Assembly: GCA_031288715.1 (NCBI GenBank)
Contig: JAITQW010000037.1
Location: 1-64,000 of the forward strand
Direction of reading: 5' to 3'
DNA length: 64,000 bases
From: Lactobacillales bacterium
GTDB taxonomy: Bacteria; Bacillota; Bacilli; Lactobacillales; Streptococcaceae
Shown here: piece by piece, positions 2,879 through 31,346 of the stretch
Position numbering within the stretch: the first letter of the stretch is position 1
Layout of the letters: each line of letters begins with the position of its first letter
Position numbers and translations under genes: made by a program
Notes under the pieces: generated by a model
Told to the model about the DNA's origin: nothing
Seen by the model: only the letters and a program-made list of their open reading frames with translations
Databases searched by the model: none

Positions 2879-2919
2879 TGAACTCAACTCCTCACTGGAT
2901 GCGCGTATTAAGATTTGTT

Positions 2920-4263: not shown

Positions 4264-4480
4264 AAATATTTGAATCCTCTCATTTTTATAATTTGTAACC
4301 GACTAAACTATAGCTAAGTATAGAGCAAAATCATCAATAAATAAATGATTTTTACAAATAAAATTTGCCAAAACATAAGAAAGTAACAGGAGCTGACTTG
4401 TTTTAAATTTTAATCAAAAATTACTATATTTCATGCCCTTTAGTCCATAAATTTATAATTGTTTTGATTTTTGGATAAAT
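4264..4480. other. Intergenic region between lysR and the permease
   Basis: AT-rich spacer downstream of the LysR gene and upstream of the permease, both leftward. It should hold the permease promoter, but I see no convincing -35/-10 pair, RNA or repeat. Confidence 0.3.
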
Positions 4481-5395: not shown

Positions 5396-5422
5396 TGTTT
5401 TTCTTAACTTTCTTTTTTTTAT

Positions 5423-5451
5423 ATAATAGCTTACAACTATGGAACTTACAA
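5423..5451 (-). promoter_or_regulatory. lysR promoter with MET-box-like dyad
   Basis: On the minus strand TTGTAA (5446-5451) and TATTAT (5423-5428) are 17 bases apart. Inside the spacer and touching the -10 is ATAGCTTACAACTAT (5426-5440). The 17-mer 5425-5441 agrees at 12 of 16 defined positions with the streptococcal methionine-regulator site TATAGTTtnaAACTATA as I remember it. This fits an autoregulatory site shared with metE. The metE side has a candidate -10 TATACT at 5558-5563 with no good -35, as expected for an activated promoter. Confidence 0.5.
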
Positions 5452-5643
5452 ATAGATAGATATTATCTTTGTGCATAATTTTTTAATACAATGTGTTTAA
5501 TCGTTATTATATATGGTCTAGTGAATACTGTGAGTAATAGTTATTTTTATCATTCTCTATACTCGCTTATCCAAAGTAATAAAATCGTTAACAGACTCTT
5601 ATTTAATAACTTTAAATATAAAAATAAGATTGGAGAGAAAATT

Positions 5644-7899: not shown

Positions 7900-7914
7900 T
7901 AAAAAATGCTCATA

Positions 7915-7985
7915 AAAAGATACGTCTGCTTATACTTTGACAAGCATCGCTTGCTTCGTAAAAGTCTAGGCAGACGTACCTCTTA
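7915..7985. repeat. Long imperfect hairpin downstream of metE
   Basis: Nested inverted arms: TACGTCTGC (7921-7929) with GCAGACGTA (7970-7978), ACTTT (7934-7938) with AAAGT (7961-7965), and CAAGC-ATC-GCTTG (7941-7953). Flanking AAGA and TCTT extend it. There is no T-run on either side, so it is not a standard terminator, although it may stop metE transcripts or protect their 3' ends. A second small hairpin, CTATTAT with ATAATAG, follows at 8001-8023. A relic of a small mobile element is an alternative. Confidence 0.55.
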
Positions 7986-8038
7986 GTATCGGAATTTTCG
8001 CTATTATAGAAAAGCCATAATAGACTCTAAATAAATTG

Positions 8039-8380
8039 CTACAGCGCTTCCCTTCCACTTTCTCCTGTTCTAATTCGTACTACTTCTTCAATTGGCCAGA
8101 CAAATATTTTTCCGTCTCCAACTTCTCCAGTACGAGTTTTTTCAATAATTAAATCAATTACTTGATCCACGTGATTATCTTCTACAACCATCTCTAATTT
8201 CACTTTTGTAAGTAAAGTGGTAATTATCTTTTGTCCTCGAAGATACTCATGAAAACCTTGTTGATTTCCAAATCCTAGAACTTGAGAAACCGTAACTCCA
8301 TGGACAATTTCACTCTCACCAATCACTTTTTTCAACTCTTCTAATTTTTCTGTACGAATAATTGCTTCTACTTTCTTCAT
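8039..8380 (-). CDS. glnK: PII nitrogen signal protein GlnK
   Basis: A 113-residue PII protein: N-terminal MKKVEAIIRTEKLEEL, a T-loop following VLGFGNQQGF, and the C-terminal signature TRTGEVGDGKIFV, which contributes to nucleotide binding. It should bind ATP, ADP and 2-oxoglutarate and gate AmtB. The T-loop has QKIITTL where E. coli GlnB has the uridylylated tyrosine (AEYMVDF), so control by uridylylation is not expected; direct ligand control is likely, as in other Firmicutes. It lies 59 bases downstream of amtB in the same direction. Confidence 0.92.
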   Translation of the reverse strand: MKKVEAIIRTEKLEELKKVIGESEIVHGVTVSQVLGFGNQQGFHEYLRGQKIITTLLTKVKLEMVVEDNHVDQVIDLIIEKTRTGEVGDGKIFVWPIEEVVRIRTGESGREAL

Positions 8381-8439
8381 AGACTCTTCCTTTCAAATTA
8401 ATCGACTATGTTAAAAAATTAGTTTTCTCTATCTGTTTT

Positions 8440-9675
8440 CTAGCTATCTAATCCCATAAATGTTGGATAAGCAGTTTCATCATGTTCTGTATCATCCATT
8501 CCAACAGCTTCTTCGTGCTCACTTACTCGGATGGACATAAACAACGAAATAGCTTTAATAATCATAAAACTAACTATAGCAGCATAGATTAATGTAAAGA
8601 CGATCGACAATATTTGAGCAAAAAATAATTTAGTTTCTCCATAAAACAATCCTGCTCCACTTTCTAACGCAAGTTTAGGTGTAGTAAAAATTCCGGTCAT
8701 GATTCCACCAAAAATTCCACCAATTCCGTGACAACCAAATGCATCTAGTGCATCATCCAAGCCTAATTTACCTTTTACAACAGAAATAAAAAAGTAACAA
8801 ATAGGACTTACGAGTGCACCGATTAGAAGTGAACTTCCTAGCGAGACAAATCCTGCTCCTGGAGTAATTGCTACAAGACCAACGATGCCTCCCGTACATG
8901 CACCAATCACTGAAGGTTTTCCAATCAAACATTTTTCAACAAGCATCCATGATAACATTGCAGTTGCTGCAGCAGCATTCGTTGTTAAAAAAGCATGAAT
9001 AGCTAAGCCATTCGCCGCAAGAGCTGATCCTGCATTAAATCCAGTCCAACCAAACCACAGTAGGCCAAAACCTAATACCACAAATGGGATATTATGTGGG
9101 CGATATTCCAAGTGTTCGTACTCTCTACGAGAACCTAAAACATAAGCAAGAACTAATCCAGAAATTCCAGAAGAAATATGCACTACATTCCCACCTGCAA
9201 AATCAATTGATCCAATCTGCGCTAAAAATCCACCGCCCCAGACCATATGTGCTAGAGGATAGTAAACAAGAATTGACCAAATCGCAATAAAAATGAAAAT
9301 AGCAGAAAATTTCATCCGACCAACCACTGATCCTGTTAAAATAGCAGTTGTAATTAAAGCGAACATCATTTGGAAGATAGAAAACAATGCATCAGGAATT
9401 TCTAATCCATGCAATTTAGTTCCAGTCTCACTTACTTTTTGCATCAGAAAATGTCCAAATCCTCCAATAAAATGGCCATTTCCATCAAATGCTAAACTAT
9501 AACCAACAACAAACCATAATACAGTTGCTAAGCCTAAAGTACAAATTACCATCATCATTGTGTTTAAAATATTTTTTCTTCTTTCTAAACCGCCATAAAA
9601 AAACGCTAAAGCTGGTGTCATTAAAAAAACTAAACTGGAACAAATTAAAATAAATGCAACGTTACCAGAATTCAT
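8440..9675 (-). CDS. amtB: Ammonium transporter AmtB
   Basis: Trimeric membrane channel for ammonium. The protein (411 aa from the preferred ATG) has about eleven transmembrane helices and the family features: the pore twin histidines lie in HISSGISGL and GCHGIGGIFGG, and FYGGLERRKN is typical of the first helices. An in-frame start exists at 9690, but AAGGAGG lies just before the ATG at 9675, which gives the start MNSGNVAFILI. It forms an operon with glnK; GlnK should bind the cytoplasmic face and close the pore under nitrogen excess. Confidence 0.94.
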   Translation of the reverse strand: MNSGNVAFILICSSLVFLMTPALAFFYGGLERRKNILNTMMMVICTLGLATVLWFVVGYSLAFDGNGHFIGGFGHFLMQKVSETGTKLHGLEIPDALFSIFQMMFALITTAILTGSVVGRMKFSAIFIFIAIWSILVYYPLAHMVWGGGFLAQIGSIDFAGGNVVHISSGISGLVLAYVLGSRREYEHLEYRPHNIPFVVLGFGLLWFGWTGFNAGSALAANGLAIHAFLTTNAAAATAMLSWMLVEKCLIGKPSVIGACTGGIVGLVAITPGAGFVSLGSSLLIGALVSPICYFFISVVKGKLGLDDALDAFGCHGIGGIFGGIMTGIFTTPKLALESGAGLFYGETKLFFAQILSIVFTLIYAAIVSFMIIKAISLFMSIRVSEHEEAVGMDDTEHDETAYPTFMGLDS

Positions 9676-9844
9676 AAAATCCTCCTTCATTTAAAAAAAT
9701 TAAAAATCTGCGTGAATTTTTCCAGAAAAAAACAAGATAACTTGAAATAATATTTCATGTCATAAATTCTAACATAACAAAAAAGAATTGTGGTAATTTT
9801 TTTAATCAACCAACAATTCGATAAACAAATGTTCATGTTTACGC

Positions 9845-10710
9845 CTAAATTTCATGATATTCGGCATAAACTTCTGATTTTTTTAACCTTCTTATTTTCG
9901 CTACTTCACGAATGGCTTCTTTTGAACTCTCATCATTATCCTGCATCAATATTTCCACGTGTTCCTTAACTGAAAGATTCTCCCAAACAGTTTTCTCTTC
10001 TACTACACCCAAAAATCCAGAAACAATCAAACAAATTTCTCCCTTGAGTGGATTATCTTTCAATTCCTCTAAAATTTCTAAAATTGTTCCTCGTAAATAT
10101 TCTTCATGGATTTTAGTTAATTCGCGACATAAAGCAATTTGGCGATTTCCATACACTTCTAGAATGGCTCCCAAAGTCTCTTTTACGCGATATGGAGATT
10201 CATAAAAAATTTGCGTTTCCTTTGCTTCCTTCATTTTCTCTAATATAAGTATTTGTTCTTTTTTTTCCTAGGCAAAAATCCATAAAAAAGAAATGGCTGT
10301 ACATATATTCCTGAGGCAATAAGCGCTGTCATACCAGCAGTCGCTCCTGGAAGAGAAATCACTGGAATTCCTTTTTCAATACAAGCAACTACAAATTCAT
10401 ACCCAGGATCGCTAATTGAAGGCATACCAGCATCGCTAACCTGCGCAAGTTTTTCTCCACTTTCCAGTTTTGCTATTAATTGTGGAATACGCTCTTTAAA
10501 ATTATGTTCATGCAAACTAATCTGTAACTTTTTAATTTTAAAATGGTTTAATAATTTTAACGTATTTCGAGTATCCTCACTTGCAATTGCATCTACTTCA
10601 GAAAGAATTCGCACTGCTCGCATTGTCATATCTTCCAAATTACCAATAGGTGTTGGCACCAAATAAAGAATTCCTTCATGCTCTTTTGAAAAACTTTTCT
10701 GTATTTTCAA
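9845..10710 (-). pseudogene. rsmI: 16S rRNA 2'-O-methyltransferase RsmI, frameshifted
   Basis: RsmI methylates the 2'-O of C1402 in 16S rRNA using S-adenosylmethionine. The first frame (10710-10240) encodes the N-terminal part, with LVPTPIGNLEDMT and SDAGMPSISDPGYE, and reaches FYGFLPRKKK. It then runs into a stop after NKYLY. Shifting frame at the A8 run (10259-10266, T on the plus strand) gives RKKKEQILILEKMKEAKETQ, which joins the second open part ending at 9845. One missing A therefore explains the break. It could be a true mutation, a homopolymer sequencing error, or a site where polymerase slippage restores some full-length protein. It is last in the tmk-holB-ricT-yabA-rsmI series. Confidence 0.9.
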
Positions 10711-10800
10711 AATAATTTTATTCCTCTCAATATGAATAACAAAAAATTATAATAAATTAGAACATCACAAAAAAATTAGAGCATGTTAGTGATCTAGGAG

Positions 10801-10846
10801 TTCAAAAATTCATTTCACTAGAGGTCTTGGGTAGGTTTTAAAAATT
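10801..10846 (+). repeat. Dispersed intergenic repeat, copy A
   Basis: CAAAAATTCATTTCACTAG followed by GTCTTGGGTAGGTTTTAAAAATTA. Closely related sequences occur on the opposite strand at 49563-49612 and 13051-13102, and a partial one at 46675-46709. This copy lies between yabA and rsmI. Confidence 0.5.
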
Positions 10847-11186
10847 ATCGATCTAACATTTCCAAACAAAGCAAGCATTCTTCATTGTCCAAGCAACTGC
10901 TTCCATAAAAAGCATTGCAAATATGGAAACCATCATTGTATAAAGACTCTAAGCATCCTTTTGCAACTGACTTTGATGATTTATTTTTGTTGGAAATCTC
11001 TTTATTCTCATATAGTTGCTTATAATCTAATAATTTTTCTTTCAATTTCTTATTTTCAAGAGAAATAAAGGCCTTTTCCATCATCATTTCTTGTAGTTGA
11101 TGATTAACTTCATGAACTTCCGTCAATATCTGGTTAAGATTCTTTTCTAAACTAACCAATCGATCATGCCATACTTTATTATCCAT
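10845..11186 (-). CDS. yabA: Replication initiation control protein YabA
   Basis: YabA limits replication initiation by binding DnaA and the DnaN clamp. The 113-residue protein has an N-terminal leucine-zipper-like helix (about residues 1-60, with hydrophobic heptads) and a C-terminal zinc motif made of His and Cys in GFHICN and EECLLCLEML. Length is normal. It follows ricT by 27 bases and precedes rsmI, the standard Lactobacillales order. An extra Cys-containing stretch (FYGSSCLDNEE) sits in the zinc region. Confidence 0.92.
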   Translation of the reverse strand: MDNKVWHDRLVSLEKNLNQILTEVHEVNHQLQEMMMEKAFISLENKKLKEKLLDYKQLYENKEISNKNKSSKSVAKGCLESLYNDGFHICNAFYGSSCLDNEECLLCLEMLDR

Positions 11187-11213
11187 AATTAGCTCTCTTT
11201 TTATTATTTTAGA

Positions 11214-12029
11214 TTATGAATGTTTGCCTTGTTTTAATACTTGAACATCGTTAACATTGTATTCTTCGAGGTGCTCTTTGCCCTGTAATTGTATCCTTAA
11301 AGTGCGTGTTAAATAATTTACACCTTTCACTATACCTTCACCATCAGTTGTTGAAACACTTGTTCCCCAATCCGGTATTTCCTTACGAGCTTCCTTATAA
11401 GTTTCATTCTCGTATTTTAAACAGCACATCAATCGTTCGCAAAGTCCTGAAATTTGAACAGGGTTCAACGATAAATCTTGTTCTTTTGCCATTTTAATTG
11501 ACACGGCAGTGAAGCTTCCTAAGAAAGTTGAGCAACATAGCATTCTTCCGCAAGAAGATATTCCTCCTAATAATCTTGCCTCATCGCGTGCTCCAATCTG
11601 ACGCATCTCAATTCGTGATTCAAAATGAACAGATAATTCTCTTATTAATTTTCGAAAATCAATTCTATCCTCAGATACAAAATTTAAAATCAAACGTGAA
11701 CGATCAAACATAAGTTCCGCATCTACAATCTTCATCTTTAAATGATGATAACGTACACTTTCCTTTGCTTTTTTTAAAATAAAATTTGCTTCTTTTTCTA
11801 TATCCTTCGCTTTCTTGATTTCATGAAATGTTGGTTTTGCTATAATACTTCGAACCCGTTTTGAAAATTTTGTAGAATCAACTCTTTGATTCTCAATTAC
11901 AACTTTTGCCATTCTCTTGCCTTGAGGAGAAGGAACTAATACATAATCATCATAAGAAAATTTTTTACCTTTGGGTAAAAAATAATGTATAGAAGCATTA
12001 TTTTTGTAACGAACACCAATGATCTCCAT
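11214..12029 (-). CDS. ricT: PSP1-domain protein RicT (YaaT)
   Basis: RicT belongs to the RicA-RicF-RicT iron-sulfur complex that in B. subtilis promotes RNA maturation with RNase Y. The 271-residue protein has the PSP1 domain and the conserved cysteine clusters SSCGRMLCCSTFL and CERLMCCLKYE. The sequence from GARDEARLLGG onward is the usual core. Length is normal. It lies between holB and yabA, as in most Firmicutes. Starts at ATG 12029. Confidence 0.93.
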   Translation of the reverse strand: MEIIGVRYKNNASIHYFLPKGKKFSYDDYVLVPSPQGKRMAKVVIENQRVDSTKFSKRVRSIIAKPTFHEIKKAKDIEKEANFILKKAKESVRYHHLKMKIVDAELMFDRSRLILNFVSEDRIDFRKLIRELSVHFESRIEMRQIGARDEARLLGGISSCGRMLCCSTFLGSFTAVSIKMAKEQDLSLNPVQISGLCERLMCCLKYENETYKEARKEIPDWGTSVSTTDGEGIVKGVNYLTRTLRIQLQGKEHLEEYNVNDVQVLKQGKHS

Positions 12030-12074
12030 TGCCTTTTCTCCCTCTATCTATAACTAACTTTGATATAAAAAATT

Positions 12075-13019
12075 TTAAGATGAGATAAACCTTAAGGCCA
12101 GTTGTTCACAAACGTTTTGAAAAGAAACATTGCTTTCAAATTTTCTTATGGCTACCATAATTTTTTCTAGGCCTTTCACATAAACAGATTCGTTTTTTTT
12201 TCTAAAATACTCAGCTCTCTTGTTTTGCCAAAAAACACGCAACATTTCTAACACAAGTTTTTGATTAATTCTCTCTTTCACTGATGGTACTAGCTTAGAA
12301 TCAACATAAATAAATGCTATTGATTCTTTATCTCTTAGTAACTGTATCCAGTTTTGCACAAGTTTTCGATAATTTTGAAATTCTTCTTTTTGTAACAGAC
12401 AAACAGCTTGTTTCATGTTGCTTCCTAAATTTGTCAAAAAATCAGCTTCTTCTTCTGTAATATCATATTTTAGTAACTGAATTTTTAATTCTATATCTTT
12501 TAAAGGACGAAAAAACAATGGCTGTACTCTTGAAACAATTGTTGGAAGTAATTTAGAAATCTCAGTTGTTTCAAGTACGATCGTAACATTTTCATTAGGT
12601 TCTTCCAAAAATTTTAGCAAGCTATTCTGAGAATTAGCATTCATCTTATCTGCTTCTTGAATAATAATCATTTTTTGACAAGATTCAAATCCAGAAAAAC
12701 TTAATTCTTTTTTTAAAGAACGAATTTGTTCAACCTTAATAGTCTGAGAATCTGTTTTGATTGTAATCACATCCGGATAGATATCTTTTTCGATTCGTAC
12801 ACAAAAATTACATTTCAAACAGGGTAAATTTGATTCATCTGTTGACTCACAAAACTTTGCCTTAGCTAACCATTTTGCTAAAGCATGCTTTCCAACTCCT
12901 GCTTTGCCTACAAATAAATACGCATGAGTTAAATGTTGTCTTGAAATCATTCTTTCCAATACTGAAAAAACTTGTGGTTGTTTCATTCGGTATTCTTTTT
13001 CAAACACTTCTTTTCTCAT
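12075..13019 (-). CDS. holB: DNA polymerase III delta' subunit
   Basis: Clamp-loader subunit. The 314-residue protein has the AAA+ N-terminal region with GKAGVGKHALAKWLA, zinc-binding cysteines in CLKCNFC, and the SRC-like motif SRVQ. The P-loop ends in GKH instead of GKS/T, consistent with delta' not hydrolysing ATP. The start at 13019 or an internal ATG (MKQPQVFSVLE) are both possible. It normally follows tmk with the PII-like gene darA (yaaQ) between; here only a 92-base spacer with a repeat copy separates them. Confidence 0.92.
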   Translation of the reverse strand: MRKEVFEKEYRMKQPQVFSVLERMISRQHLTHAYLFVGKAGVGKHALAKWLAKAKFCESTDESNLPCLKCNFCVRIEKDIYPDVITIKTDSQTIKVEQIRSLKKELSFSGFESCQKMIIIQEADKMNANSQNSLLKFLEEPNENVTIVLETTEISKLLPTIVSRVQPLFFRPLKDIELKIQLLKYDITEEEADFLTNLGSNMKQAVCLLQKEEFQNYRKLVQNWIQLLRDKESIAFIYVDSKLVPSVKERINQKLVLEMLRVFWQNKRAEYFRKKNESVYVKGLEKIMVAIRKFESNVSFQNVCEQLALRFISS

Positions 13020-13050
13020 CAGTCACACTTTCTTTAGAAATCCAAATAAA

Positions 13051-13102
13051 AATTTTTACCTTAGAGTTTGTTAACAATTTCTAGTGAAATGAATTTTTGA
13101 GT
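13051..13102 (-). repeat. Dispersed intergenic repeat, copy C
   Basis: The minus strand reads AACTCAAAAATTCATTTCACTAG followed by an AT-rich tail ending TAAAAATT. It matches copy A (10801-10846, opposite strand) and copy B (49563-49612). It fills the gap between tmk and holB. Confidence 0.5.
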
Positions 13103-13111
13103 TGCAGATTC

Positions 13112-13768
13112 TTAATACTTTATTTCTGAAAACCATTCTGGAAAACGTTGAATAATAACATTCAAACCTTCTCGAACTACCGTTGCAAAAGTTTGACTTG
13201 CGTCAATGATAGCTACCCTTTCTGGATTATTATGAGCAATTTCTAAATATCCTTCTCGAACTTTTTTATGAAATGAAAGCTCAGTCAAATCGATACGATT
13301 TACTTCATCGACTCGATTTTGTTCAATTCGAGACAAACCTTCTTCTACTTCTACATCTAAATATAGAGTTAATTGAGGTTTGATACCATCCGTAGCAAAC
13401 TCATTTAAACTTTCTATTGCTCTTATTCCAAGATCTCGCCCTACACCTTGGTAAGCAAGGGAACTATCAATAAAACGATCAATAATTACTACCTTATCAT
13501 CTTTTAAGGCAGGCAAAACCTTCTTAACTAAATGTTCTCTACGACTTGCTATAAATAACAAGGCTTCCGTTTTATTATCCATCCCCTCATTCTTTGAAGA
13601 AAGAATCACTTCTCGAATTTCTTCAGCAATCGGAATTCCTCCAGGTTCTCGAGTTGTAATCACTGAAGTTTTAGCGCGTGCGCGAAGCAAGGGGACCATA
13701 GATTGCATTATCGAGGTTTTGCCTGCTCCCTCAGGTCCTTCAATTGTTATCAGTAAACCACTCATCAT
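13112..13768 (-). CDS. tmk: Thymidylate kinase
   Basis: Phosphorylates dTMP to dTDP. The 218-residue protein has the P-loop EGPEGAGKTS near the N-terminus, the TTREPGG substrate motif and DRFIDSSLAYQG of the DRX-type catalytic region. Length is normal. AAAGGA precedes the ATG. It is the first gene of the tmk-holB-ricT-yabA-rsmI run. Confidence 0.95.
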   Translation of the reverse strand: MMSGLLITIEGPEGAGKTSIMQSMVPLLRARAKTSVITTREPGGIPIAEEIREVILSSKNEGMDNKTEALLFIASRREHLVKKVLPALKDDKVVIIDRFIDSSLAYQGVGRDLGIRAIESLNEFATDGIKPQLTLYLDVEVEEGLSRIEQNRVDEVNRIDLTELSFHKKVREGYLEIAHNNPERVAIIDASQTFATVVREGLNVIIQRFPEWFSEIKY

Positions 13769-13860
13769 TTAAAATCCTTTCCATTTTAATCGGAAGGTTA
13801 ACGGCTATATCTGCTAATCCTTATTCTAACGAAAAATTTTCATGTTCTCAACAAAATTTG

Positions 13861-13900
13861 AAAAATGGCCAAATTGTAATAACAAGTTAGCCACTTTTAT
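13861..13900 (-). terminator. Hairpin upstream of tmk, possible terminator or repeat
   Basis: The minus strand reads AAAAGTGGC ... GCCATTTTT, a GC-core hairpin flanked by an A-run and a T-run. The left arm with its continuation (AAAAGTGGCTAAcTTGTTATT) closely matches plus-strand 31039-31060 in the promoter region of the peptide cluster. It could be a bidirectional terminator relic or part of a repeat family. Confidence 0.4.
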
Positions 13901-13930
13901 TTAGCATTCGATTAGCAAAAGACTTGATAT

Positions 13931-13959
13931 TTGACTCTTACTAACTTTTTATATTAAAT
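13931..13959 (+). promoter_or_regulatory. Candidate promoter of the secreted coiled-coil gene
   Basis: TTGACT (13931-13936) and TTAAAT (13954-13959) are 17 bases apart. A start point about seven bases later falls inside the palindrome at 13962-13986. Confidence 0.5.
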
Positions 13960-13961
13960 TT

Positions 13962-13986
13962 CTAAATAGTTCCATGAACTTTTTAG
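13962..13986 (+). promoter_or_regulatory. 25-base near-perfect palindrome at the presumed start site
   Basis: CTAAA-T-AGTTC-CAT-GAACT-T-TTTAG: two pairs of 5-base arms symmetric about CAT. It ends 12 bases before the Shine-Dalgarno AAGGAGG (about 13998-14004). Either an operator for a repressor or a 5' untranslated hairpin. Confidence 0.6.
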
Positions 13987-14009
13987 ATTATTTCCAAGGA
14001 GGAATTTAA

Positions 14010-14780
14010 ATGACAAATAACCTACATAAAAAATTCAAAATAGTAACTTTTATAACAATTTCTCTATGCGGATTTTTATCAACTTTTGTATCTGCTTCTA
14101 GCAAAGTTGGTATACAAAGTCCATGTTACGAAAGTTTGCCAGAAACAAATTCACGTATAGAAGAAACTCAGACTCGTTTACTGATTGCCGCTGAAATTGA
14201 AGCAAAAGATCGAGAAATTGTTCAAGTCATACTAGAAATAAATCAAGCGGAAGCACAACTAAAAAGCTTCTATCAATCTTCTACAGATGAATCTAGAGAC
14301 ACTGAAATCAAGCAATTAATTGAAGATTTAGCAAAAATTAAAATTGAACTTACTCCTCTAGCTGCAGAACACAAAGTAAGAAAGGCAGCTATCAAACAAA
14401 AAACAGATGAATTGAAACAAATGGGTCAAACAATTATGTCTCTTCGCACTTCAATAAAAGTAGATGATCCAGAATTGAGTGCAAAAGCTGCCAAACTTAA
14501 TGAATTTGTTGCAGAATCTGGACAAGCCGCTATTGCAGAAGAACTTCATCGTTTAAAAGAAGAAGCAGCTACAAATGAAGAACCATTTAAAGAGTTAAAA
14601 ATAACAAAAAAAGCAAAAACAGATCGTCTTAAGCAATTAAGATCTGAGAAAGCTGAAACATTAGCTCAACTGCGCCGATTGAAAGCTGAAAAAACACAGA
14701 AAAGTGCCACATTTCGTCAACTCAAAGCACAGCGTGCAGAAAAATTGGCTCAACTTAGAAGATTAAGCAGCAGAAAATAA
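14010..14780 (+). CDS. Secreted coiled-coil protein of unknown function
   Basis: I do not recognise a named family. The 256-residue protein has a signal peptide (KK near the N-terminus, hydrophobic core about 11-27, SAS-type cleavage region near 28-31). Almost the whole mature part is predicted coiled coil rich in Glu, Lys, Gln and Ala. One Cys is at residue 39. The C-terminus carries related units 28 residues (four heptads) apart: KAETLAQLRRLKAEK (214-228) and RAEKLAQLRRLSSRK (242-256). There is no LPXTG, LysM or NlpC/P60 domain. A strong Shine-Dalgarno, its own promoter, a palindromic site and a strong terminator mark it as a monocistronic, separately regulated gene. A surface or host-contact role is only inference. 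Confidence 0.8.
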   Translation: MTNNLHKKFKIVTFITISLCGFLSTFVSASSKVGIQSPCYESLPETNSRIEETQTRLLIAAEIEAKDREIVQVILEINQAEAQLKSFYQSSTDESRDTEIKQLIEDLAKIKIELTPLAAEHKVRKAAIKQKTDELKQMGQTIMSLRTSIKVDDPELSAKAAKLNEFVAESGQAAIAEELHRLKEEAATNEEPFKELKITKKAKTDRLKQLRSEKAETLAQLRRLKAEKTQKSATFRQLKAQRAEKLAQLRRLSSRK

Positions 14781-14782
14781 AA

Positions 14783-14824
14783 ATCAAAAGAGGTTAATCA
14801 AACATATTAACCTCTTTTGATTTT
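14783..14824 (+). terminator. Strong bidirectional terminator
   Basis: AATCAAAAGAGGTTAAT pairs with ATTAACCTCTTTTGATT around a short loop, followed by a T-run on both strands. It ends the secreted-protein gene and can also stop leftward transcripts from mutS2. Confidence 0.92.
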
Positions 14825-14849
14825 TAGTAGTAATTTTTAGAGATAGTAA

Positions 14850-14901
14850 GGTAAACTGTGTAAGTAATATTACGCTTTTAAAGTTCACAGCTTCAGTTTA
14901 G
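14850..14901. repeat. Partial copy of the CTGTGTAAG hairpin repeat
   Basis: GTAAACTGTGTAAGTAA at 14851-14867 is the same 17 bases as on the minus strand of the hairpin near 35340. AAACTG (14853-14858) pairs with CAGTTT (14894-14899). Unlike the copies at 35.3 and 58.4 kb, it has no clear T-run and a different loop. Confidence 0.45.
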
Positions 14902-14904
14902 TAA

Positions 14905-17298
14905 TTACCACAACCTTACAATTGTTGCTCCATCTCCTCCAGCATTTCCTGGAGCAAATTCAAAATCTTTCACGCGAGAATCACTTCGAAGCATACTTGT
15001 AACTCCCTCGCGCAACACTCCTGTTCCTCTTCCATGAATAATCGTTACTTGCGAAAATCCAGAAAGTATCGCTTGATCCAGGTAACGATCCACAAGGATC
15101 AACGCTTCATCATACCTCTTTCCGCGCAAATCTAACTGATTTACTGCATGACTTCCAAATTCACTATGTAAAGTTCCCTTTGATCGTCGCAACACAGTAG
15201 CCTTTTTCGTCTTAGCCTTCTTTTTTTCCTTATCTTTTGGTGCAGGGACCAAACCATCTAAATTTACAGTCATCTTAATAATTCCAACTTGTACTACCCA
15301 ATCTTTATCAGATACTTTCTTCGCCAAAACTCCTCGCTGCGAATAAGCGCTAACGATTACCTCGTCACCAACTTTAAAGCTTTTCTCCTTCTTAGCCTTT
15401 TGTAAAATCCTATTTCTTGAAAGCATCTCTTCTTGTTTCAAATTCTTAAACTTAGTCTTAGCATCAATCAATTCATGTTCTTTTACCAAAGAATGCTCAG
15501 CTCGTTTTTGCAATTCACGAATATCTTGTAAAATTAGTTCTGATTCTTTCTGCGCTCTATCAACAATCTCAGCTGCCTTTTTCTGTGCATTTTTAAACTC
15601 CGCTTCTTTTTGAGAAGAGAAACGTTGATATTCTTCTCGTAAATCAGCAATTAATCTCTCAGATTCTTGCAATTCTGAGGATAGCTTCTTATGTTTATCT
15701 ACAGAAATTTTCCTTTGATTTTCTAAGTCAAGAAGCAGTTTGTCTAATTTTTGCGAATCTTCATCCATTAAACTACGAGTCGCTTCAATAATTTCAAAAC
15801 TAAGTCCTAAACGTTTTGAAATTTCAAATGCATTAGAACGACCTGGTATTCCAATCAACAAGCGATATGTTGGACTTAATGTTTTTACATCAAACTCCAT
15901 ACTTGCATTCATCGTCTTTGATCGATGATAACCGTAAGCTTTCAACTCAGGATAATGCGTCGTTGCCAAAACACAGCTTCCTTTAACACTAACAGCATCC
16001 AAAATTGCTACAGCCAACGCTGCTCCTTCTTGCGGATCCGTCCCTGCTCCCAATTCATCAAACAGCACCAAACTTTTCTCATTTGTTACTTTTAAAATAT
16101 CCACGATATGAGTCATATGACTAGAAAATGTTGATAAATTTTGCTCAATAGACTGCTCATCTCCAATATCTGCAAAAATTTCCGTGAAAATTCCAATAGC
16201 ACTTCTTTCAGCTACAGGAATTGCTAACCCGCTTTGAGCCATTATCTGAAGTAGTCCCAAAGTCTTCAATGTGACTGTCTTACCACCTGTATTGGGTCCA
16301 GTAATCACCAACGTTTGATACTCTTTTCCAATAACTAAATCATTTGTTACTAATTTCTCTTGATTCAACAATGGATGGCGCGCCATGCGTAAATTAACCT
16401 GATTTTCTTCAGAAATTTCAGGAATAACTGCCTTTTGTTCCTTCGCTAAATAAGATTTTGCTTGAAGAAAGTCAAGATGTCCTAGAACATACGAATTCTG
16501 CAAAATATCTTGCACAAATGGGACAAGCAATGCTGATAGTTCCGATAAGATTCGCTCAATTTCTTGACGTTCTTCGATTTGATTCCTACGTAATTGATTG
16601 TTCAAATCCACAACTGGTTGTGGCTCGATATAAAGTGTTTGCCCTGTAGCTGATTGATCGTGTACCACACCAGCAACTGCATTTCGATGTTCCTGCTTAA
16701 CTGGAAGCACAAAACGCTCGCTACGAATTGTGATTAAAGAATCACTCAAATACTTTGCTGAACTACCGCGAAGAAAACGAGTCAAAACAGTTCTTATTTT
16801 CTCCTCACTTCGACGAATATCACCACGAATTCGTTTCAATTCGCTTGACGCTTCATCCATTATCAAACCTTCCTCGGAAACACTCAAACGTAATTTCTGA
16901 TTTATTTCTGATAACGCTGTTAACTTCCTATTCCATTCAAAAAGCCTCGGAAAGTCTAACTTTTCTGATTCTAAGTCTTCAATAAAACGGTTAACTTTAC
17001 TTGTGGATCTCAATAATTTACTAACTTTGGCAAGTTCCAATGCATTTAAATTAGCACCCATTTTCAAACGCTTCATATGAGGAATCACACTCTCAAGTTT
17101 CAAAAGAGGAAAGCCTCCCCGTAAACGCAAAATATCCATGCTTTCCTTAGTTTCCTCTAAAGCCACGTGCACCCTTTTCAGATGAGAAAACGGGACAAGA
17201 TTTTTTATCTCTTCAGATCCACTTGCAGTAACCGCATACTTCAATAATCGATTTTGAATTTCGTAAAACTCCAAAATATCTAAAATTCTTGAATTCAT
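14905..17298 (-). CDS. mutS2: MutS2 with Smr nuclease domain
   Basis: A 797-residue MutS2. It has an N-terminal MutS-like core region, an ATPase with P-loop GPNTGGKTVTLKTLG (about residue 332 on) and the ABC-like region LFDELGAGTDPQEGAALA. A long coiled coil (about 510-630) follows, and then a C-terminal Smr domain with LDLRGKRYDEAL and IHGRGTGVLREGV. In Firmicutes MutS2 acts on collided ribosomes and on recombination intermediates. It lies downstream of cvpA, a conserved order. The C-terminus is intact. Confidence 0.95.
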   Translation of the reverse strand: MNSRILDILEFYEIQNRLLKYAVTASGSEEIKNLVPFSHLKRVHVALEETKESMDILRLRGGFPLLKLESVIPHMKRLKMGANLNALELAKVSKLLRSTSKVNRFIEDLESEKLDFPRLFEWNRKLTALSEINQKLRLSVSEEGLIMDEASSELKRIRGDIRRSEEKIRTVLTRFLRGSSAKYLSDSLITIRSERFVLPVKQEHRNAVAGVVHDQSATGQTLYIEPQPVVDLNNQLRRNQIEERQEIERILSELSALLVPFVQDILQNSYVLGHLDFLQAKSYLAKEQKAVIPEISEENQVNLRMARHPLLNQEKLVTNDLVIGKEYQTLVITGPNTGGKTVTLKTLGLLQIMAQSGLAIPVAERSAIGIFTEIFADIGDEQSIEQNLSTFSSHMTHIVDILKVTNEKSLVLFDELGAGTDPQEGAALAVAILDAVSVKGSCVLATTHYPELKAYGYHRSKTMNASMEFDVKTLSPTYRLLIGIPGRSNAFEISKRLGLSFEIIEATRSLMDEDSQKLDKLLLDLENQRKISVDKHKKLSSELQESERLIADLREEYQRFSSQKEAEFKNAQKKAAEIVDRAQKESELILQDIRELQKRAEHSLVKEHELIDAKTKFKNLKQEEMLSRNRILQKAKKEKSFKVGDEVIVSAYSQRGVLAKKVSDKDWVVQVGIIKMTVNLDGLVPAPKDKEKKKAKTKKATVLRRSKGTLHSEFGSHAVNQLDLRGKRYDEALILVDRYLDQAILSGFSQVTIIHGRGTGVLREGVTSMLRSDSRVKDFEFAPGNAGGDGATIVRLW

Positions 17299-25086: not shown

Positions 25087-26925
25087 TTAAATTTTCAAAG
25101 AAAGCGAAGGGCCAAAATTATTGAGCTTTCCATCTTCTAAAAGTAAAATTTTGTCTGCTCTCTTGGCGATGGAGAAGTTGTGAGTGATAAATATAGTGAT
25201 TCTATCCTCTTTGGCAAGAAGCTGCTCAAATATTTTGTTCTCACTAAATGAGTCAATAAAAGATGTAGGTTCATCTAGTAAATAAAAGGAAGAATTTTTA
25301 TAAAAAACTCTAGAAAGGCAAATTTTTTGCCATTGACCTTCTGATATTTGTGTTCCTTCATCAAACCAATTTCCTAAATTTTGCTTCAATGCATACTCAC
25401 CATCTTTTAAAAGAAAATCTACTTGCGCCTTATTTAAGGCAGATGCTATTTTTTCTGATTCACAATTTGCATATATATTACCAATGATTACATTTTCCTT
25501 GAGTGAGCTTTCGTAACGAAAGAAATTTTGAAAGATCACAGAAACACTTTGCCAATAGGTTTCTTTATCAATTTCTTTTAAGCTGATACCATTAATTAAT
25601 ATTTCTCCTCGATCATAGTCATACAAACCACAAAGTAACTTCAATAAGGTGGTTTTTCCCGAACCATTCTTTCCGAGAATTGCCATTGTTTCTCCAGCTT
25701 CAACTGAAAACGAAATATCTTGAAGTCCTTTTTTTGTGCTATAGTCAAAAAATAAATGATTTACTTCAATGGTTTCAATTTTTAAAGAATTCACTATTTT
25801 TGATTTAATTGGAACTTTAGCTTCTTTATGTAATGCCAAAACAAGATTTGTTCTTGGCAAAGCAGATGATGGGTTCTGATGATTTTCAAGTTCACAAAAA
25901 GATAGTTCACTTTCAATGGGTAAAGTTAAAAAAGATTTTAATAATCTCATATATAAGCTAGATTGATAAATCGAGTAAACTTGCTGCGAAAATTGAGAGA
26001 TGTTTCCTTCAATAAGAGTTGCAGCTAAAAGGTATGATAATCCTGTTCCTAATAAAATATTTCCGCAGATAATTTCCTTAATCGCAACAATAGTAATAAT
26101 TACGACGAAGCATTCATGAACAGCGCTAATAGCAATTCTAACCTTCGTCCTCTTAGCATACAATTGACAATCTTGTTTAATAAACTGACTTTTTATTTTT
26201 TTATATTTTTTTAAGAAAAAATTTTTTAAACCGAATGTTTTGATTTCTTTAAAAGCAACATCTTTCGTTAAAAGAAAGGAATAATACCAAGATTTTCTTT
26301 CAAGCTCACTTCTTTGAAATTTCATTTCAAATTCTTGATTTCCAAGTTTAATATCGATGATTATGTTTAGAGATGTTAAAAGCATGGTAGAAATTAAAAT
26401 CCAAAATTTCCACGTAAATAAAATAACACTTACCGAACTGAAGGTAATCATTGCCTGAAAAAAAAGAAGAAAAGAATGAAAAATTTCATATGGTTTCACA
26501 GGCGTTTCATTTTCTAATCTTGTGATCATATTATAAATTTCACTTTTTTCTAAATGCTTTAAAGAAAGATTGGAACATCTCTCAATAATTAAACAATTTA
26601 CACGATAATTAAGTAACATGGAAAACCGATTGCTTAATAAATTTACAATATGCTGAACCAAGATATTTAAAAAAGATAATAAAATAAAGGGATATAAAGA
26701 AAAATTGATATTCACTATATCCCTCATTTGAACAGCATTAATTAAATTTTGGTTAATTATCAAAAGAGCTGCTGGACAAATACCACCAACCATCGTAAAA
26801 AAGATAATAAAAAAGAAAAGCCATTGATTTGTTTTACAAAGTAAAAGAAGGGTGTATTTTATAATCCCCCAGTTACATTGTACTTTCTTCAATGGTACAA
26901 TAATTATTTGTTTTATAATTTTCAT
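25087..26925 (-). CDS. ABC exporter of the modified peptide
   Basis: A 612-residue half-transporter with an N-terminal membrane domain of about six helices (residues 20-320) and a C-terminal nucleotide-binding domain. Walker A is GKNGSGKTTLLKLLCG, the signature is ISEGQWQK (a variant of LSGGQ), Walker B is FYLLDEPTSF, and the H-loop is FITHNFS. No C39 peptidase domain is present, so it should export the product but not cut the leader. It starts five bases after the precursor stop without a clear Shine-Dalgarno, which suggests translational coupling. It is very probably the exporter for the neighbouring cysteine-rich peptide; a lipid or drug substrate cannot be excluded. Confidence 0.85.
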   Translation of the reverse strand: MKIIKQIIIVPLKKVQCNWGIIKYTLLLLCKTNQWLFFFIIFFTMVGGICPAALLIINQNLINAVQMRDIVNINFSLYPFILLSFLNILVQHIVNLLSNRFSMLLNYRVNCLIIERCSNLSLKHLEKSEIYNMITRLENETPVKPYEIFHSFLLFFQAMITFSSVSVILFTWKFWILISTMLLTSLNIIIDIKLGNQEFEMKFQRSELERKSWYYSFLLTKDVAFKEIKTFGLKNFFLKKYKKIKSQFIKQDCQLYAKRTKVRIAISAVHECFVVIITIVAIKEIICGNILLGTGLSYLLAATLIEGNISQFSQQVYSIYQSSLYMRLLKSFLTLPIESELSFCELENHQNPSSALPRTNLVLALHKEAKVPIKSKIVNSLKIETIEVNHLFFDYSTKKGLQDISFSVEAGETMAILGKNGSGKTTLLKLLCGLYDYDRGEILINGISLKEIDKETYWQSVSVIFQNFFRYESSLKENVIIGNIYANCESEKIASALNKAQVDFLLKDGEYALKQNLGNWFDEGTQISEGQWQKICLSRVFYKNSSFYLLDEPTSFIDSFSENKIFEQLLAKEDRITIFITHNFSIAKRADKILLLEDGKLNNFGPSLSLKI

Positions 26926-26930
26926 AATTT

Positions 26931-27131
26931 TTAACTTGAGCGTATTGTTCTAGTTGCCGCTACGCGGTTCCCTGTCCTATATTCGCCACGAGAACCACAC
27001 CAACATCCACAATGAAAACAGTGGTCTCCAACGCCTCTTGTAGAACTAAATGTTCCCCCATCTGAGCACATGCATGCCTCAAAATGAATTTCATCTCCTA
27101 TTTTACGACCAACAGGACTAATAAATTGCAT
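26931..27131 (-). CDS. Cysteine-rich RiPP precursor peptide
   Basis: A 66-residue peptide with a leader-like N-terminus (MQFISPVGRKIGDEIHFEA) and a core holding six cysteines at 20, 22, 38, 41, 43 and 45: a CMC pair, a Gly/Ser/Thr-rich spacer, then CFHCGCWCG. A basic, Cys-free tail follows (residues 46-66). The layout resembles the CLI_3235 or CA_C0660 type bacteriocin precursors that travel with radical SAM/SPASM enzymes, though I cannot confirm membership. ATG 27131 is preferred over ATG 27140 because AGGGAG is nine bases away instead of one. The gene is visibly richer in G+C than its neighbours. There is no double-Gly leader site. It sits between the maturase and the exporter. Confidence 0.8.
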   Translation of the reverse strand: MQFISPVGRKIGDEIHFEACMCSDGGTFSSTRGVGDHCFHCGCWCGSRGEYRTGNRVAATRTIRSS

Positions 27132-27196
27132 CACTAACATCTCCCTAAAATTAAAAGAATAATTATTAAATTTATATTTTTAGTATATAATAAAAC

Positions 27197-28756
27197 TTAT
27201 GTTATTTCAATTTCATTTAAATATTCCAAAGCATAAGGATTTTCTTCAAAAATCTTATGATAGCGAATCAATGACTCTTCCAAAAGTGCTCTCTCTTCCA
27301 TACAAGCAAGATGGCGATATTTAAAGTGCATACCGTTTGAATCATAACAATTCGTATAACAAAGACCACATAAATTTACTGCCCAACAATTTTGACAATA
27401 TTTTTTTACTTCAGATAAATAATCATCGAAATAGTACTTCTTAATATTTTCTAAATCAAAACCATCATCTATGTTACCTAAAGAAGGAATATTTCCAACT
27501 TTCTCACAAATATTGAAGTTCCCTTCCGTTGTAACGTAAAGTCTCCTAACACCTGGAGCACAACACCCCTGCATTCCATACACTTGCAAAGGGTAATCAC
27601 TCATTATTCGTTTATGTACACGCAACAATCCCTGATTGTAGGCTCCTTTCGTATAAAGAGGTTCATCATTTCTTAATTTTTTTTGTTTTTTATCATGCCA
27701 CAAAAACATAGGAGTATCAATGCTTTTCAGTAACTCTATTTCAGCTAAACTTTGCGGTAAAATATATTCATAGTCATGCGGATCATGATTGACTCCTCCT
27801 AAAGTAACTGCAAAATTTTCAGGTAAATTCTTAATGCTATTAAATAAATCGTATATTTCATCGTAAATTTTTTGATTATAAGCATTCGTAATAACCATAT
27901 TAAAGCCAAAATTTGGTTCAATTTTTTGCTTACAATAAGCTTTTATAAGGTTTTCTACTCCTTTTAAAGTGGATGTAAACGATCCCTCCTGGTTGATAAA
28001 AACACGATTTTGATTATGAATGTCCTTCGGACCGTCTAAACTAATAATTATGCTCATTTCATTGGCTACCAAAAAATCAGCAATCTCCTCTGTTAATAAG
28101 GTTGCATTAGTGGTCATAGAAAACGTTATTTTTTGATCGTTAAAAAGATTTTTTGCATATTTAATACTCTGTTTTATAAGAGGGAAATTAATGAGTGGTT
28201 CACCACCATAAAATCCAATATAGATTTCTTTATTACACTTAGAATAGGATGCCAAGAAATCAATGGCTTTTTTGGCTAAAGCAATACTCATATTTTTGTT
28301 TCCAAATTCTCGATATGATTGATGTTTCGAGTGATAAATACAATAGTTACACCGTAAATTGCACCTTTCAGTTACTTCAAGAATAATACTGGAAATTTCA
28401 TTCTCCAGCATCGATTCCAGGTACATTGCTTTCCCTTGTATTTCTTCAAATGGAGCAGCAGATAAAACATGCTGTTCTTCAACAGCTAAACAGATCTTTG
28501 CAAGTGTTTTTTTTAGCTTTCGATTTGTCAAGCAGATAGTAGTTAATTTTTTGAAATCATTATTTGTTTCAAACAGCAACTTCAAAACCAAATAGACATC
28601 TTTATCCACCTGAGCGATCTTGCCTGTTCCCATATCCAAGAAATAAAAATATTTATCAGTTTTAAAAACTTTTCCTAGTCTAGGAAAATATTGATCTCTT
28701 TGTAAAGTTTGAAAATACCTCTCAAATTCTTCCATCGTGTATGCTTCGTAGTCCAC
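27197..28756 (-). CDS. Radical SAM/SPASM peptide maturase
   Basis: A 519-residue radical SAM enzyme. Residues 1-115 look like a precursor-binding (RRE/PqqD-like) domain. The radical SAM core starts with CNLRCNYC (Cys132, 136, 139) and the GGEP motif (184-187). A C-terminal SPASM region has Cys398, 399 and 417 and the cluster CQNCWAVNLCGLCYTNC (454-470) plus Cys485, enough for two auxiliary iron-sulfur clusters. This architecture forms thioether crosslinks from Cys to other residues in sactipeptides and ranthipeptides. The start is GTG with AAGGAG seven bases upstream. The adjacent cysteine-rich peptide is the obvious substrate. Confidence 0.92.
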   Translation of the reverse strand: MDYEAYTMEEFERYFQTLQRDQYFPRLGKVFKTDKYFYFLDMGTGKIAQVDKDVYLVLKLLFETNNDFKKLTTICLTNRKLKKTLAKICLAVEEQHVLSAAPFEEIQGKAMYLESMLENEISSIILEVTERCNLRCNYCIYHSKHQSYREFGNKNMSIALAKKAIDFLASYSKCNKEIYIGFYGGEPLINFPLIKQSIKYAKNLFNDQKITFSMTTNATLLTEEIADFLVANEMSIIISLDGPKDIHNQNRVFINQEGSFTSTLKGVENLIKAYCKQKIEPNFGFNMVITNAYNQKIYDEIYDLFNSIKNLPENFAVTLGGVNHDPHDYEYILPQSLAEIELLKSIDTPMFLWHDKKQKKLRNDEPLYTKGAYNQGLLRVHKRIMSDYPLQVYGMQGCCAPGVRRLYVTTEGNFNICEKVGNIPSLGNIDDGFDLENIKKYYFDDYLSEVKKYCQNCWAVNLCGLCYTNCYDSNGMHFKYRHLACMEERALLEESLIRYHKIFEENPYALEYLNEIEIT

Positions 28757-28784
28757 TATTATTCTCCTTAAAAAAACACTTCAA

Positions 28785-30047
28785 TCAACCGATTTGGTGC
28801 TTGTTAAATGTTTGCACAGACAATTTAAACAATACACAAGTAAGTATTGCATAAAATAGCATAACGGCCAAATACGTTGGAAAAACCAAATTACCTATGC
28901 TATAAGCGAAGTAGTCACAAAAATCTCTATGCGGAATATAAATCACTGAAAAAAGGCGTCGCAAACTCTCGAGAATTATCTCTTCACTCCGCTGATTAAA
29001 CAAAACAAAATTAGAAATTAAGATGTATATTACGCTGATGATTACAACAGGTATCACTGTTTTAAATTTTGTTGATAAATACAAAGTTGCAGTGACCAAT
29101 CCTATGAGAATCAGATAACCTGCTAGTAAAGCTAATAAAACAAATTGCAACAAGGTGTATGAAAAACTGGTAATCTCTCCCAATGCCTGGACAGGGAGAT
29201 TCCACCCTTTAAATCCATAGGGAATCAAAAGGGACAGTATGCCTACCAGCCAAAAAATAAAATAGAAGAGAGAGACAAGTAAATAAATAGACAAAATCTT
29301 CGCTATAGCGATTTTTTTTCCACCTAATTTTGATGACAACAAAAGCATGTCCATTTTGGATGCATACTCACTTGAAAAAGTTGAAGAAGCAAACATACAT
29401 GAAATCAAAATAATAAATAGTAAAGCTACTGGAAACATCTGAATAAGTACCTTCCAACCTAGATGATAGCCAAAGTGGAAAGGTGTTTTTAATTTTTTCT
29501 CCTTTTTATTAAAATAAGCTCTTTTTTTTTCGTTCAATAAAGCACTGCGGGAAAGATGCTCTTTAACATTGACACTTCTTATTGAATAAAACTGAGCTTC
29601 TTTCCTTTTGCATAAGGAATGGGAATTAAGTATGTCCGGCATATTAATGGCATTAATATCACTATTAATAGGAGAATAATTACGGGCAAGCAAACACAAT
29701 AAGTCACCTTTGGGTATAATTTTTTCGGAATATACTTTATCTTTTAAATGCCGCAAACAATTTTGCTCAATAACAAAATTGTTTTTATCGCTACATAAAC
29801 ACTTAATCTGTTGAACTTCATTATGTACCACGGACTCACTTAGCACCTTGGGCAATTTTTTTCCATGAACTTTTTTCATTCGAACTGCTGCTAATCCTTT
29901 TAATTCTTCCCCAATAGAACAACATCCTTCTTGAAAAGGAGCATGAATAAAAATTACCAAATATACCAAAAGTGCTAATCCTGCAGTTACCAGTGTTGAT
30001 TTTTTTTTAATATTTTTTTTAATTTCCAATTTCGTCAATTTGATCAT
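28785..30047 (-). CDS. ABC-2 type permease with cysteine-rich outer loop
   Basis: A 420-residue permease with one helix near the N-terminus (about 17-35), a large extracytoplasmic region (about 36-195) and about five more helices. The outer region has seven cysteines (42, 43, 83, 85, 97, 118, 146), which is unusual for a Firmicute. The first helix plus large loop plus C-terminal helices is the ABC-2 layout. It is 21 bases downstream of the ATPase gene and 28 bases upstream of the maturase. In bacteriocin clusters such ATPase-permease pairs often give producer immunity; that role is inference. Confidence 0.85.
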   Translation of the reverse strand: MIKLTKLEIKKNIKKKSTLVTAGLALLVYLVIFIHAPFQEGCCSIGEELKGLAAVRMKKVHGKKLPKVLSESVVHNEVQQIKCLCSDKNNFVIEQNCLRHLKDKVYSEKIIPKGDLLCLLARNYSPINSDINAINMPDILNSHSLCKRKEAQFYSIRSVNVKEHLSRSALLNEKKRAYFNKKEKKLKTPFHFGYHLGWKVLIQMFPVALLFIILISCMFASSTFSSEYASKMDMLLLSSKLGGKKIAIAKILSIYLLVSLFYFIFWLVGILSLLIPYGFKGWNLPVQALGEITSFSYTLLQFVLLALLAGYLILIGLVTATLYLSTKFKTVIPVVIISVIYILISNFVLFNQRSEEIILESLRRLFSVIYIPHRDFCDYFAYSIGNLVFPTYLAVMLFYAILTCVLFKLSVQTFNKHQIG

Positions 30048-30068
30048 AAAAAACTATCCCTTCTCATT

Positions 30069-30935
30069 CTAGTTTGGGCCAGGCAAAGCTTTAAAGTAAT
30101 ACAAATAAACATCCTCTAAGCTAGGATATATCACTTCGCTTTCAGGAAAGGGACTCGTATCACTGACAATCCTTGCAGTAGCAAATTTTTGATCATATTG
30201 CAAATTTACAATTAAGAATTCTTGCTCAATTTCTTCAATTTTATTAAGCGGTAGCTGACATTTCCAAACTTTTCCTTGTAAACTATCTAACAAATCTTTA
30301 GTGCGTTTAAATTTCAGAATTTCTCCTTTTTCAATAAGAATAATCAATTTTGCAATGAATTCCACATCAGATACAATATGAGTAGACAGAATAACAATTC
30401 TATTACTAGCAAGATCGGATATGACTTTTCTAAATCTTACACGTTCCTTAGGATCAAGTCCTGCAGTTGGTTCATCAAGCACTAAAATTTTAGGATCATT
30501 GATTAAAGCTTGAGCAATTCCTAAACGTTGCTTCATACCACCGGAAAAAGTCTTAATTTTTCTGGTCTTTTCTTCATACAAACCAACCAGCTTTAAAATT
30601 TCATCCACATCACTTTTCAGGCAATCTTTAATAGTAACAACGTAGTCCATAAATTCTGAAGCTGTTAATTCTGGGTAATAGCCGAAATCTTGCGGTAAAT
30701 AACCTAAAAGATTCCGATATGTCTCTCCCAAAGAAAGAATATTTTTATTATCCAATTTAACAGAGCCACTGGTAGGTTTAAGTAAACCGCAAGTAATATT
30801 CATTAAGGTTGACTTTCCAGCACCATTTGGTCCCAACAAACCATAAACACCATTAGTTAAAGTAAGGTTGACATTAGAGAGAGCTAATTTTCCACCTTTA
30901 TATTTTTTATTGATATTAGAATATGTAAGATTCAT
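30069..30935 (-). CDS. ABC transporter ATPase of the peptide cluster
   Basis: A 288-residue ATPase with Walker A GPNGAGKSTLMN, Q-loop GYLPQDFG, signature FSGGMKQR, Walker B ILVLDEPTAGLDP and H-loop LSTHIVSD. A C-terminal extension of about 80 residues is typical of drug- and peptide-resistance ATPases. It is the first gene of the leftward cluster and partners the ABC-2 permease that follows. A promoter with an inverted repeat lies about 140 bases upstream. Confidence 0.92.
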   Translation of the reverse strand: MNLTYSNINKKYKGGKLALSNVNLTLTNGVYGLLGPNGAGKSTLMNITCGLLKPTSGSVKLDNKNILSLGETYRNLLGYLPQDFGYYPELTASEFMDYVVTIKDCLKSDVDEILKLVGLYEEKTRKIKTFSGGMKQRLGIAQALINDPKILVLDEPTAGLDPKERVRFRKVISDLASNRIVILSTHIVSDVEFIAKLIILIEKGEILKFKRTKDLLDSLQGKVWKCQLPLNKIEEIEQEFLIVNLQYDQKFATARIVSDTSPFPESEVIYPSLEDVYLYYFKALPGPN

Positions 30936-31346
30936 TCCTTCACTTCCTTAAATTAAGGACTGTAAACAAGCTCACCACAGTAGCACAATAATTTAAGATA
31001 TCTGAAAATTTTTGAAAAATTGTTGAATCTTCTTTTTCAAAAAGTGGCTAAATTGTTATTTAGATTTTCGACAATTATATTTTTTTAAACTTCTAAAGTT
31101 TTTTATAAATGGCAATATATAATTACAGTTTACTAGCACTTCGAGTAATTTTTAGTATTTTTGCTTGTTTTTCATTTTTCTTCCCTCAAAAAATAGTCTC
31201 ATACCATTGGTTATTGCAATTCTACATCTTTTCAATGTATATGTAAACACACCGAATTTTGTTATCATTGCTCAACAAAAACATAATGAAACAAAAAAGT
31301 TTTCACCTAACATTTAAATTTTCAGTACATGTGAAGTCTCTTGCAT
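30936..31346. other. Promoter region of the peptide cluster and end of the pot operon
   Basis: 411 AT-rich bases between potD and the peptide cluster, both leftward. It contains the candidate cluster promoter (31074-31102), and AAAAAGTGGCTAAATTGTTATT at 31039-31060, which is repeated on the other strand near 13875. No regulator gene, RNA gene or convincing open frame is present. Confidence 0.6.
31074..31102 (-). promoter_or_regulatory. Candidate promoter and operator of the peptide cluster
   Basis: On the minus strand TATAAT lies at 31074-31079. The perfect inverted repeat AAACTT-CTA-AAGTTT (31087-31101) covers the spacer and the weak -35 position (AAAACT, 31097-31102). An operator there could repress or activate the cluster. 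No regulator gene is in the cluster, so control would come from elsewhere. Confidence 0.45.

Follow-up and report, generated by a model that had tools for sequence, protein, structure and literature searches.

Ruminococcin C (RumC) of Ruminococcus gnavus is the nearest studied peptide to the product discussed here. It is antibacterial and carries four C-alpha thioethers arranged in two nested hairpins; the hairpins form one after the other, beginning with the inner C-terminal bridge (PMC6779426). The bridged pairs are C24-A31, C22-N35, C45-R53 and C41-K61, according to a review, and the alpha-linked sactipeptides described there have four bridges or fewer (PMC8172795). RumC is active only after removal of its leader, which was reported to be achieved by trypsin after Lys19. 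A second point of reference is the family listed in NCBIfam as TIGR04067, 'Apre_1838 family putative sactipeptide bacteriocin'. Its founding cluster on plasmid pAPRE01 of Anaerococcus prevotii was described by Murphy et al. in 2011, who named Apre_1838 as possible structural gene (PMC3132745), and Apre_1837 was listed among sactipeptide loci by Letzel et al. in 2014 (PMC4289311).

The stretch of DNA analysed here (64,000 nucleotides of contig JAITQW010000037.1 from a Lactobacillales bacterium, in the following called the window) contains five frames on the minus strand, all open, intact and tightly packed at 25087-30935 (Table 1). Its product is most probably a RumC-like sactipeptide belonging to the Apre_1838 (TIGR04067) family that is bridged by the maturase, exported with its leader on and accompanied by an ATPase-permease pair for protection, and that is probably antibacterial. 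A sequence-only reading of this DNA had described a leftward five-gene unit with short spacings, and this description is borne out, with intergenic gaps of 21, 28, 65 and 5 bases from the ATPase to the exporter gene. The five genes form a unit beyond chance, since in eight loci a conserved precursor adjoins a maturase homolog. The cluster is chromosomal and lies among core genes in a reduced genome of 1.27 Mb. Promoter-like sites are not enriched over chance in this region (40 compared to 33.7 +/- 5.2 in shuffled sequences), and the candidate in Table 1 has to be read with this in mind. Elsewhere in the window (9845-10710), an RsmI-like 16S rRNA methyltransferase gene is split into two adjacent frames (10240-10710 and 9845-10234), possibly by a frameshift or an assembly error.

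Table 1. Features of the Apre_1838-type cluster, with positions in the window.
Feature	Position	Strand	Evidence
ABC transporter ATPase (P0005), 288 aa	30069..30935	-	Pfam ABC_tran, 116 bits
Probable ABC permease (P0004), 420 aa, partner of the ATPase	28785..30047	-	relatives in same position; no profile match
Radical SAM/SPASM peptide maturase (P0002), 519 aa, GTG start	27197..28756	-	best NCBIfam match NF035951 (RumMC)
Precursor peptide, 66 aa, six-Cys core	26931..27131	-	TIGR04067, 77.9 bits; alignment with 7 relatives
ABC exporter (P0003), 612 aa, fused membrane and ATPase domains	25087..26925	-	Pfam ABC_tran
Possible promoter TTTACA-17-TAGAAT, upstream of the ATPase gene	31219..31247	-	10/12 consensus match; suggestive only

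The precursor, MQFISPVGRKIGDEIHFEACMCSDGGTFSSTRGVGDHCFHCGCWCGSRGEYRTGNRVAATRTIRSS, starts with a leader of about residues 1-18 with a conserved P-x-G-R, followed by the core with six cysteines; the calculated monoisotopic mass of the peptide is 7186.2 Da. The cysteines are C20 and C22 and, after 15 residues, C38, C41, C43 and C45, as had been described before (CMC, 15 residues, CxxCxCxC). The statement that this pattern fits no named peptide, on the other hand, is wrong. Against TIGR04067 the precursor scores well above the curated cut-off of 45 bits, with residues 1-59 placed on positions 1-58 of the 59 profile positions, and its cysteine pattern is the signature of that family. The cluster is a new member of a family that is already catalogued and was first predicted in 2011. 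Novelty is also not supported in view of the A. prevotii relative, which has been published as a predicted sactibiotic-like cluster (PMC3132745; PMC4289311). A second precursor profile, of the CA_C0660 family (NF035954), reached 19.5 bits and stayed below its cut-off of 60, and the SCIFF profile of NCBIfam did not match the precursor. An alternative in-frame ATG is present at 27140; the start at 27131 is favoured because of an AGGGAG ribosome-binding site and because the family profile begins at residue 1. A comparison of a profile built from the precursors with the whole PDB (E values up to 10) yielded one match, RumC1 (6t33), over the core. With an E value of 4.8 this match is too weak to prove homology and may be taken as a hint. 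The single precursor sequence gave only chance matches in the PDB.

The maturase possesses the CX3CX2C motif (CNLRCNYC, 132-139) and, at residues 398-485, the complete set of SPASM cysteines, in agreement with the sequence-only reading. The spacing of this set, CX13GX4CX36CX2CX5CX2CX18C, is of RumMC type: for the window maturase and the six relatives in which it was compared, it is exactly equal to the motif of RumMC1/RumMC2 (PMC8188230), and the remaining SPASM proteins encountered in these genomes are spaced differently. Among the NCBIfam profiles, RumMC (NF035951) gave 427.8 bits, followed by CcpM (TIGR04068) with 301.3, PapB (NF047865) with 166 and SCIFF (TIGR03974) with 145 bits; none of the four curated cut-offs (720, 500, 340 and 425 bits, respectively) was reached. 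From the alternatives considered earlier, 'sactipeptide or ranthipeptide', a radical-SAM RiPP of the sactipeptide type is supported by the RumMC score and by TIGR04067, whereas the PapB and SCIFF scores lend less support to a ranthipeptide. The AlphaFold model of the maturase is poor as a whole (mean pLDDT 47, two sequences), and its N-terminal part alone was used. In this part a beta3-alpha3 order is found at residues 29-95 with pLDDT of about 50-85, which suggests a domain of RRE-like topology; the RRE of RumMC is located at 16-94 (PMC8188230). The best fold match of the model is CteB, a SCIFF maturase, which is also the nearest solved maturase by sequence. This says little because the search result contained no solved RumMC structure.

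Searches with the maturase led to seven further loci, each with a matching precursor beside the maturase. Three are located on plasmids, namely pAPRE01 of A. prevotii (L007) with its TIGR04067 precursor, p2 of Sarcina (L008) and a plasmid of Paraclostridium bifermentans (L009), in which the maturase is annotated in two pieces. Two belong to species of the window's own genus (G003 and G028), one to a genome from another family of the same order (L054), and one to an IMG/VR contig (L041) that has exactly the five-gene order of the window and a two-component system upstream. A second family of the window's order is represented by G795. The contig of L041, 68.7 kb long and carrying an intact Apre_1838-type cluster, is catalogued as viral in IMG/VR and originates from an isolate genome. 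In all eight precursors, including that of the window, the pattern is CxC, 13 to 18 residues, CxxCxCxC. Lack of a conserved precursor next to maturase homologs had been named beforehand as an outcome that would speak against the cluster; the precursor is kept beside the maturase in 8/8 loci, and the finding stands. In a seven-sequence precursor alignment P6, G8, R9 and N55 are also invariant. A tblastn search of plasmids with the precursor returned exactly two records, pAPRE01 (52% identity) and p2 of Sarcina sp. JB2 (38%), each of which carries the Apre_1838 family annotation. Two variants of the pattern were observed. The precursor of G003 (L006, 1471-1692) has CCCC in place of CxC and eight cysteines in all. 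In a distant genome of the same class (6.8 Mb; L014, 1216-1470), a RumMC-like maturase lies beside a peptide with CxC...CxCxC; with five cysteines in the core, this pattern falls between those of RumC and Apre_1838.

In a survey of 295 genomes from the window's family, matches to the precursor profile were confined to the window's genus, and maturase homologs with E < 1e-90 were present in three of five species of that genus. G003 harbours an intact divergent cluster on contig 4 and a remnant on contig 22 (L024, 5387-7126). In the remnant, which adjoins a pyruvate formate-lyase gene, the maturase ends after about residue 213 and the permease is shortened; precursor and exporter were not detected there. 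The remnant maturase is the sister of the window maturase in the tree (support 100/99). The location of relatives on plasmids and the rare, scattered distribution suggest that the cluster spread horizontally and was lost afterwards. The lower GC content of the cluster (29-33%, flanks mostly 32-40%) and its weaker GC skew may also fit such a history, albeit weakly. An empty insertion site was not definable, since potD and yqgQ do not adjoin each other in the sibling genomes. G325 was rejected as a further locus, with 20.9 bits for TIGR04067 in a 39-residue frame and no convincing precursor. When named genome contigs were searched with the maturase sequence alone, only one distant radical SAM protein was obtained, and phage records gave distant radical SAM proteins only; for a pattern scan of viral contigs the precursor alignment was too variable.

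The second-best NCBIfam match of the ATPase is the lantibiotic-protection ATPase subunit TIGR03740 (182 bits, below the cut-off of 310), and the protein is 41-45% identical to the ATPases in the same position of relatives. Paired with the permease, it probably serves in self-immunity or export. The permease had been called an 'ABC-2 permease'. This label is less secure: neither Pfam nor NCBIfam gave a match, and it derives from relatives that are annotated as ABC permeases and lie beside the same ATPase. Its identity is 22-24% to annotated ABC permeases of the Anaerococcus and Sarcina clusters, 27% to the L041 equivalent and 46% to the permease remnant in G003; a structure prediction (mean pLDDT 38, two sequences) was discarded. 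The exporter, 35% identical to its counterpart in Anaerococcus and 37% to that of L041, is the probable secretion route of the modified precursor. It was said to have no peptidase domain and indeed no Peptidase_C39 match was found with Pfam. The single C39 peptidase found in the genome was rejected as leader protease, since it is part of another locus, of NHLP/Nif11 type, on contig 44 and since the precursor's leader is without a Gly-Gly motif. That second RiPP locus (L050, G000 contig 44, about 2300-17100) encodes about ten leader peptides of the NHLP and Nif11 types, among them three with near-identical GDCYGDQACG cores at their ends. It also encodes two radical SAM proteins, one HlyD-like protein and a pair of large ABC exporters, of which one has the C39 peptidase.

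For the product, the comparison with RumC leads us to propose the following pathway. The maturase would install sulfur-to-alpha-carbon bridges in the precursor by RumMC-type chemistry, and the product, by analogy with RumC, would fold into two nested hairpins. In the first hairpin C22 and C20 may be linked to acceptors near S29/G33, if the spacing of RumC is transferred. In the second, C38, C41, C43 and C45 would use acceptors at about 53-66, with that of C45 near T53, and the extra cysteines C38, C41 and C43 would need further acceptors before residue 66. These acceptor positions are a guess from spacing. Up to six thioethers would result in a loss of about 12.1 Da. Since the exporter is without a peptidase, the modified precursor would leave the cell with the leader still on, and the leader may be removed outside the cell or by an unlinked protease. 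Activation by trypsin as in RumC cannot be transferred directly because the residue before (A/G)CxC is no trypsin site here: Glu18 precedes A19-C20 and the nearest Lys or Arg is K10. It was rejected also for the family, as only two of the eight precursors, those of Sarcina and L041, have Lys or Arg directly before the core. Given Glu in the window and Lys/Arg in these two only, the members of the family probably do not all share one activating protease. ATPase and permease would protect the producer, and the product is probably active against Gram-positive neighbours.

Within this scheme we tentatively suggest, as a good possibility short of a probable one, an alpha-linked sactipeptide with six bridges in a double hairpin (two plus four), in which a single maturase makes four nested thioethers in the second hairpin and activation is due to a protease other than trypsin. 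Crosslinking of only some of the cysteines by the maturase, for example of one in each hairpin arm as in RumC, with the two additional ones engaged in a disulfide or in metal binding, is possible but somewhat doubtful. RumC carries its four bridges on CxC and CxxxC, to which the Apre_1838 family adds two cysteines, and the limit of four bridges in the reviewed peptides points in the same direction. However, all six cysteines are kept in 8/8 loci, as is the CxxCxCxC spacing without any deviation, and the 21 residues after C45 offer room for four nested acceptors. The RumMC score of 428 bits, as against 166 for PapB and 145 for SCIFF, and the SPASM spacing equal to RumMC make links of the ranthipeptide type, from sulfur to a beta or gamma carbon as in the SCIFF, freyrasin or PapB products, quite unlikely, even though a short core with six cysteines is reminiscent of SCIFF and freyrasin and CteB is the nearest solved maturase by both sequence and fold.

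A signal or niche-specific peptide instead of an antibacterial one might be expected from the two-component systems that adjoin relatives in L007, L041 and L012. We regard this as unlikely, as RumC is antibacterial and dedicated ATPase-permease pairs of the lantibiotic-immunity type go with the cluster. It is highly improbable that the cluster is decaying and makes nothing. A broken remnant of its closest relative is indeed found in the sibling species G003, and unlike several relatives the window cluster has no two-component system, but all five frames are intact, start sites are present and the spacing is short. Moreover, differences between the precursor and its relatives lie mostly at third and first codon positions, with a dN/dS of about 0.3 against L041 and Apre, a comparison that is saturated.

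With the RumC-like sactipeptide as the preferred product, the window adds an intact and compact five-gene cluster of the Apre_1838 type from an order in which such clusters are rare. By the alignment of eight loci a vague 'Cys-rich peptide' is turned into a testable prediction, namely six thioethers, -12.1 Da and RumMC-type chemistry. To our knowledge, there is no alpha-linked sactipeptide with more than four bridges, and six alpha-carbon bridges, if true, would extend the known sactipeptide architectures. A text search for the family name in the open-licence literature, with subscription papers outside its scope, found no experimental study of the TIGR04067 family.

Compared to known systems, the locus shares with SCIFF and other ranthipeptides (CteB, PapB, freyrasin) a radical SAM/SPASM maturase, here with a putative recognition domain, and six cysteines in a short core, but the maturase reaches only 145-166 bits where 425 and 340 are required, and the precursor is without a SCIFF match. 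CcpM, the clostridial Cys-rich peptide maturase, and the CA_C0660 peptides provide the second-best profiles, both under cut-off. Closer is ruminococcin C with RumMC, which has the best maturase profile, an equal SPASM spacing, a CxC first hairpin and the same leader-core layout; in both systems there are no bridge enzymes besides the maturase. RumC differs in having four cysteines (CxC, CxxxC), in being encoded by several tandem precursor genes and in the Lys that directly precedes its core, whereas the window encodes one precursor with six cysteines (CxC, CxxCxCxC) and Glu before ACMC, and its maturase lies below the RumMC cut-off. In the founding Apre_1838 cluster (pAPRE01, Apre_1835-1840), another permease gene separates those of precursor and exporter and a two-component system lies upstream, whereas the chromosomal cluster of the window has neither. 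The precursor of pAPRE01 is about 52-53% and its maturase 47% identical to that of the window, and common to both clusters are the order ATPase, permease, maturase, precursor and exporter, the six cysteines and the xxPxGR leader.
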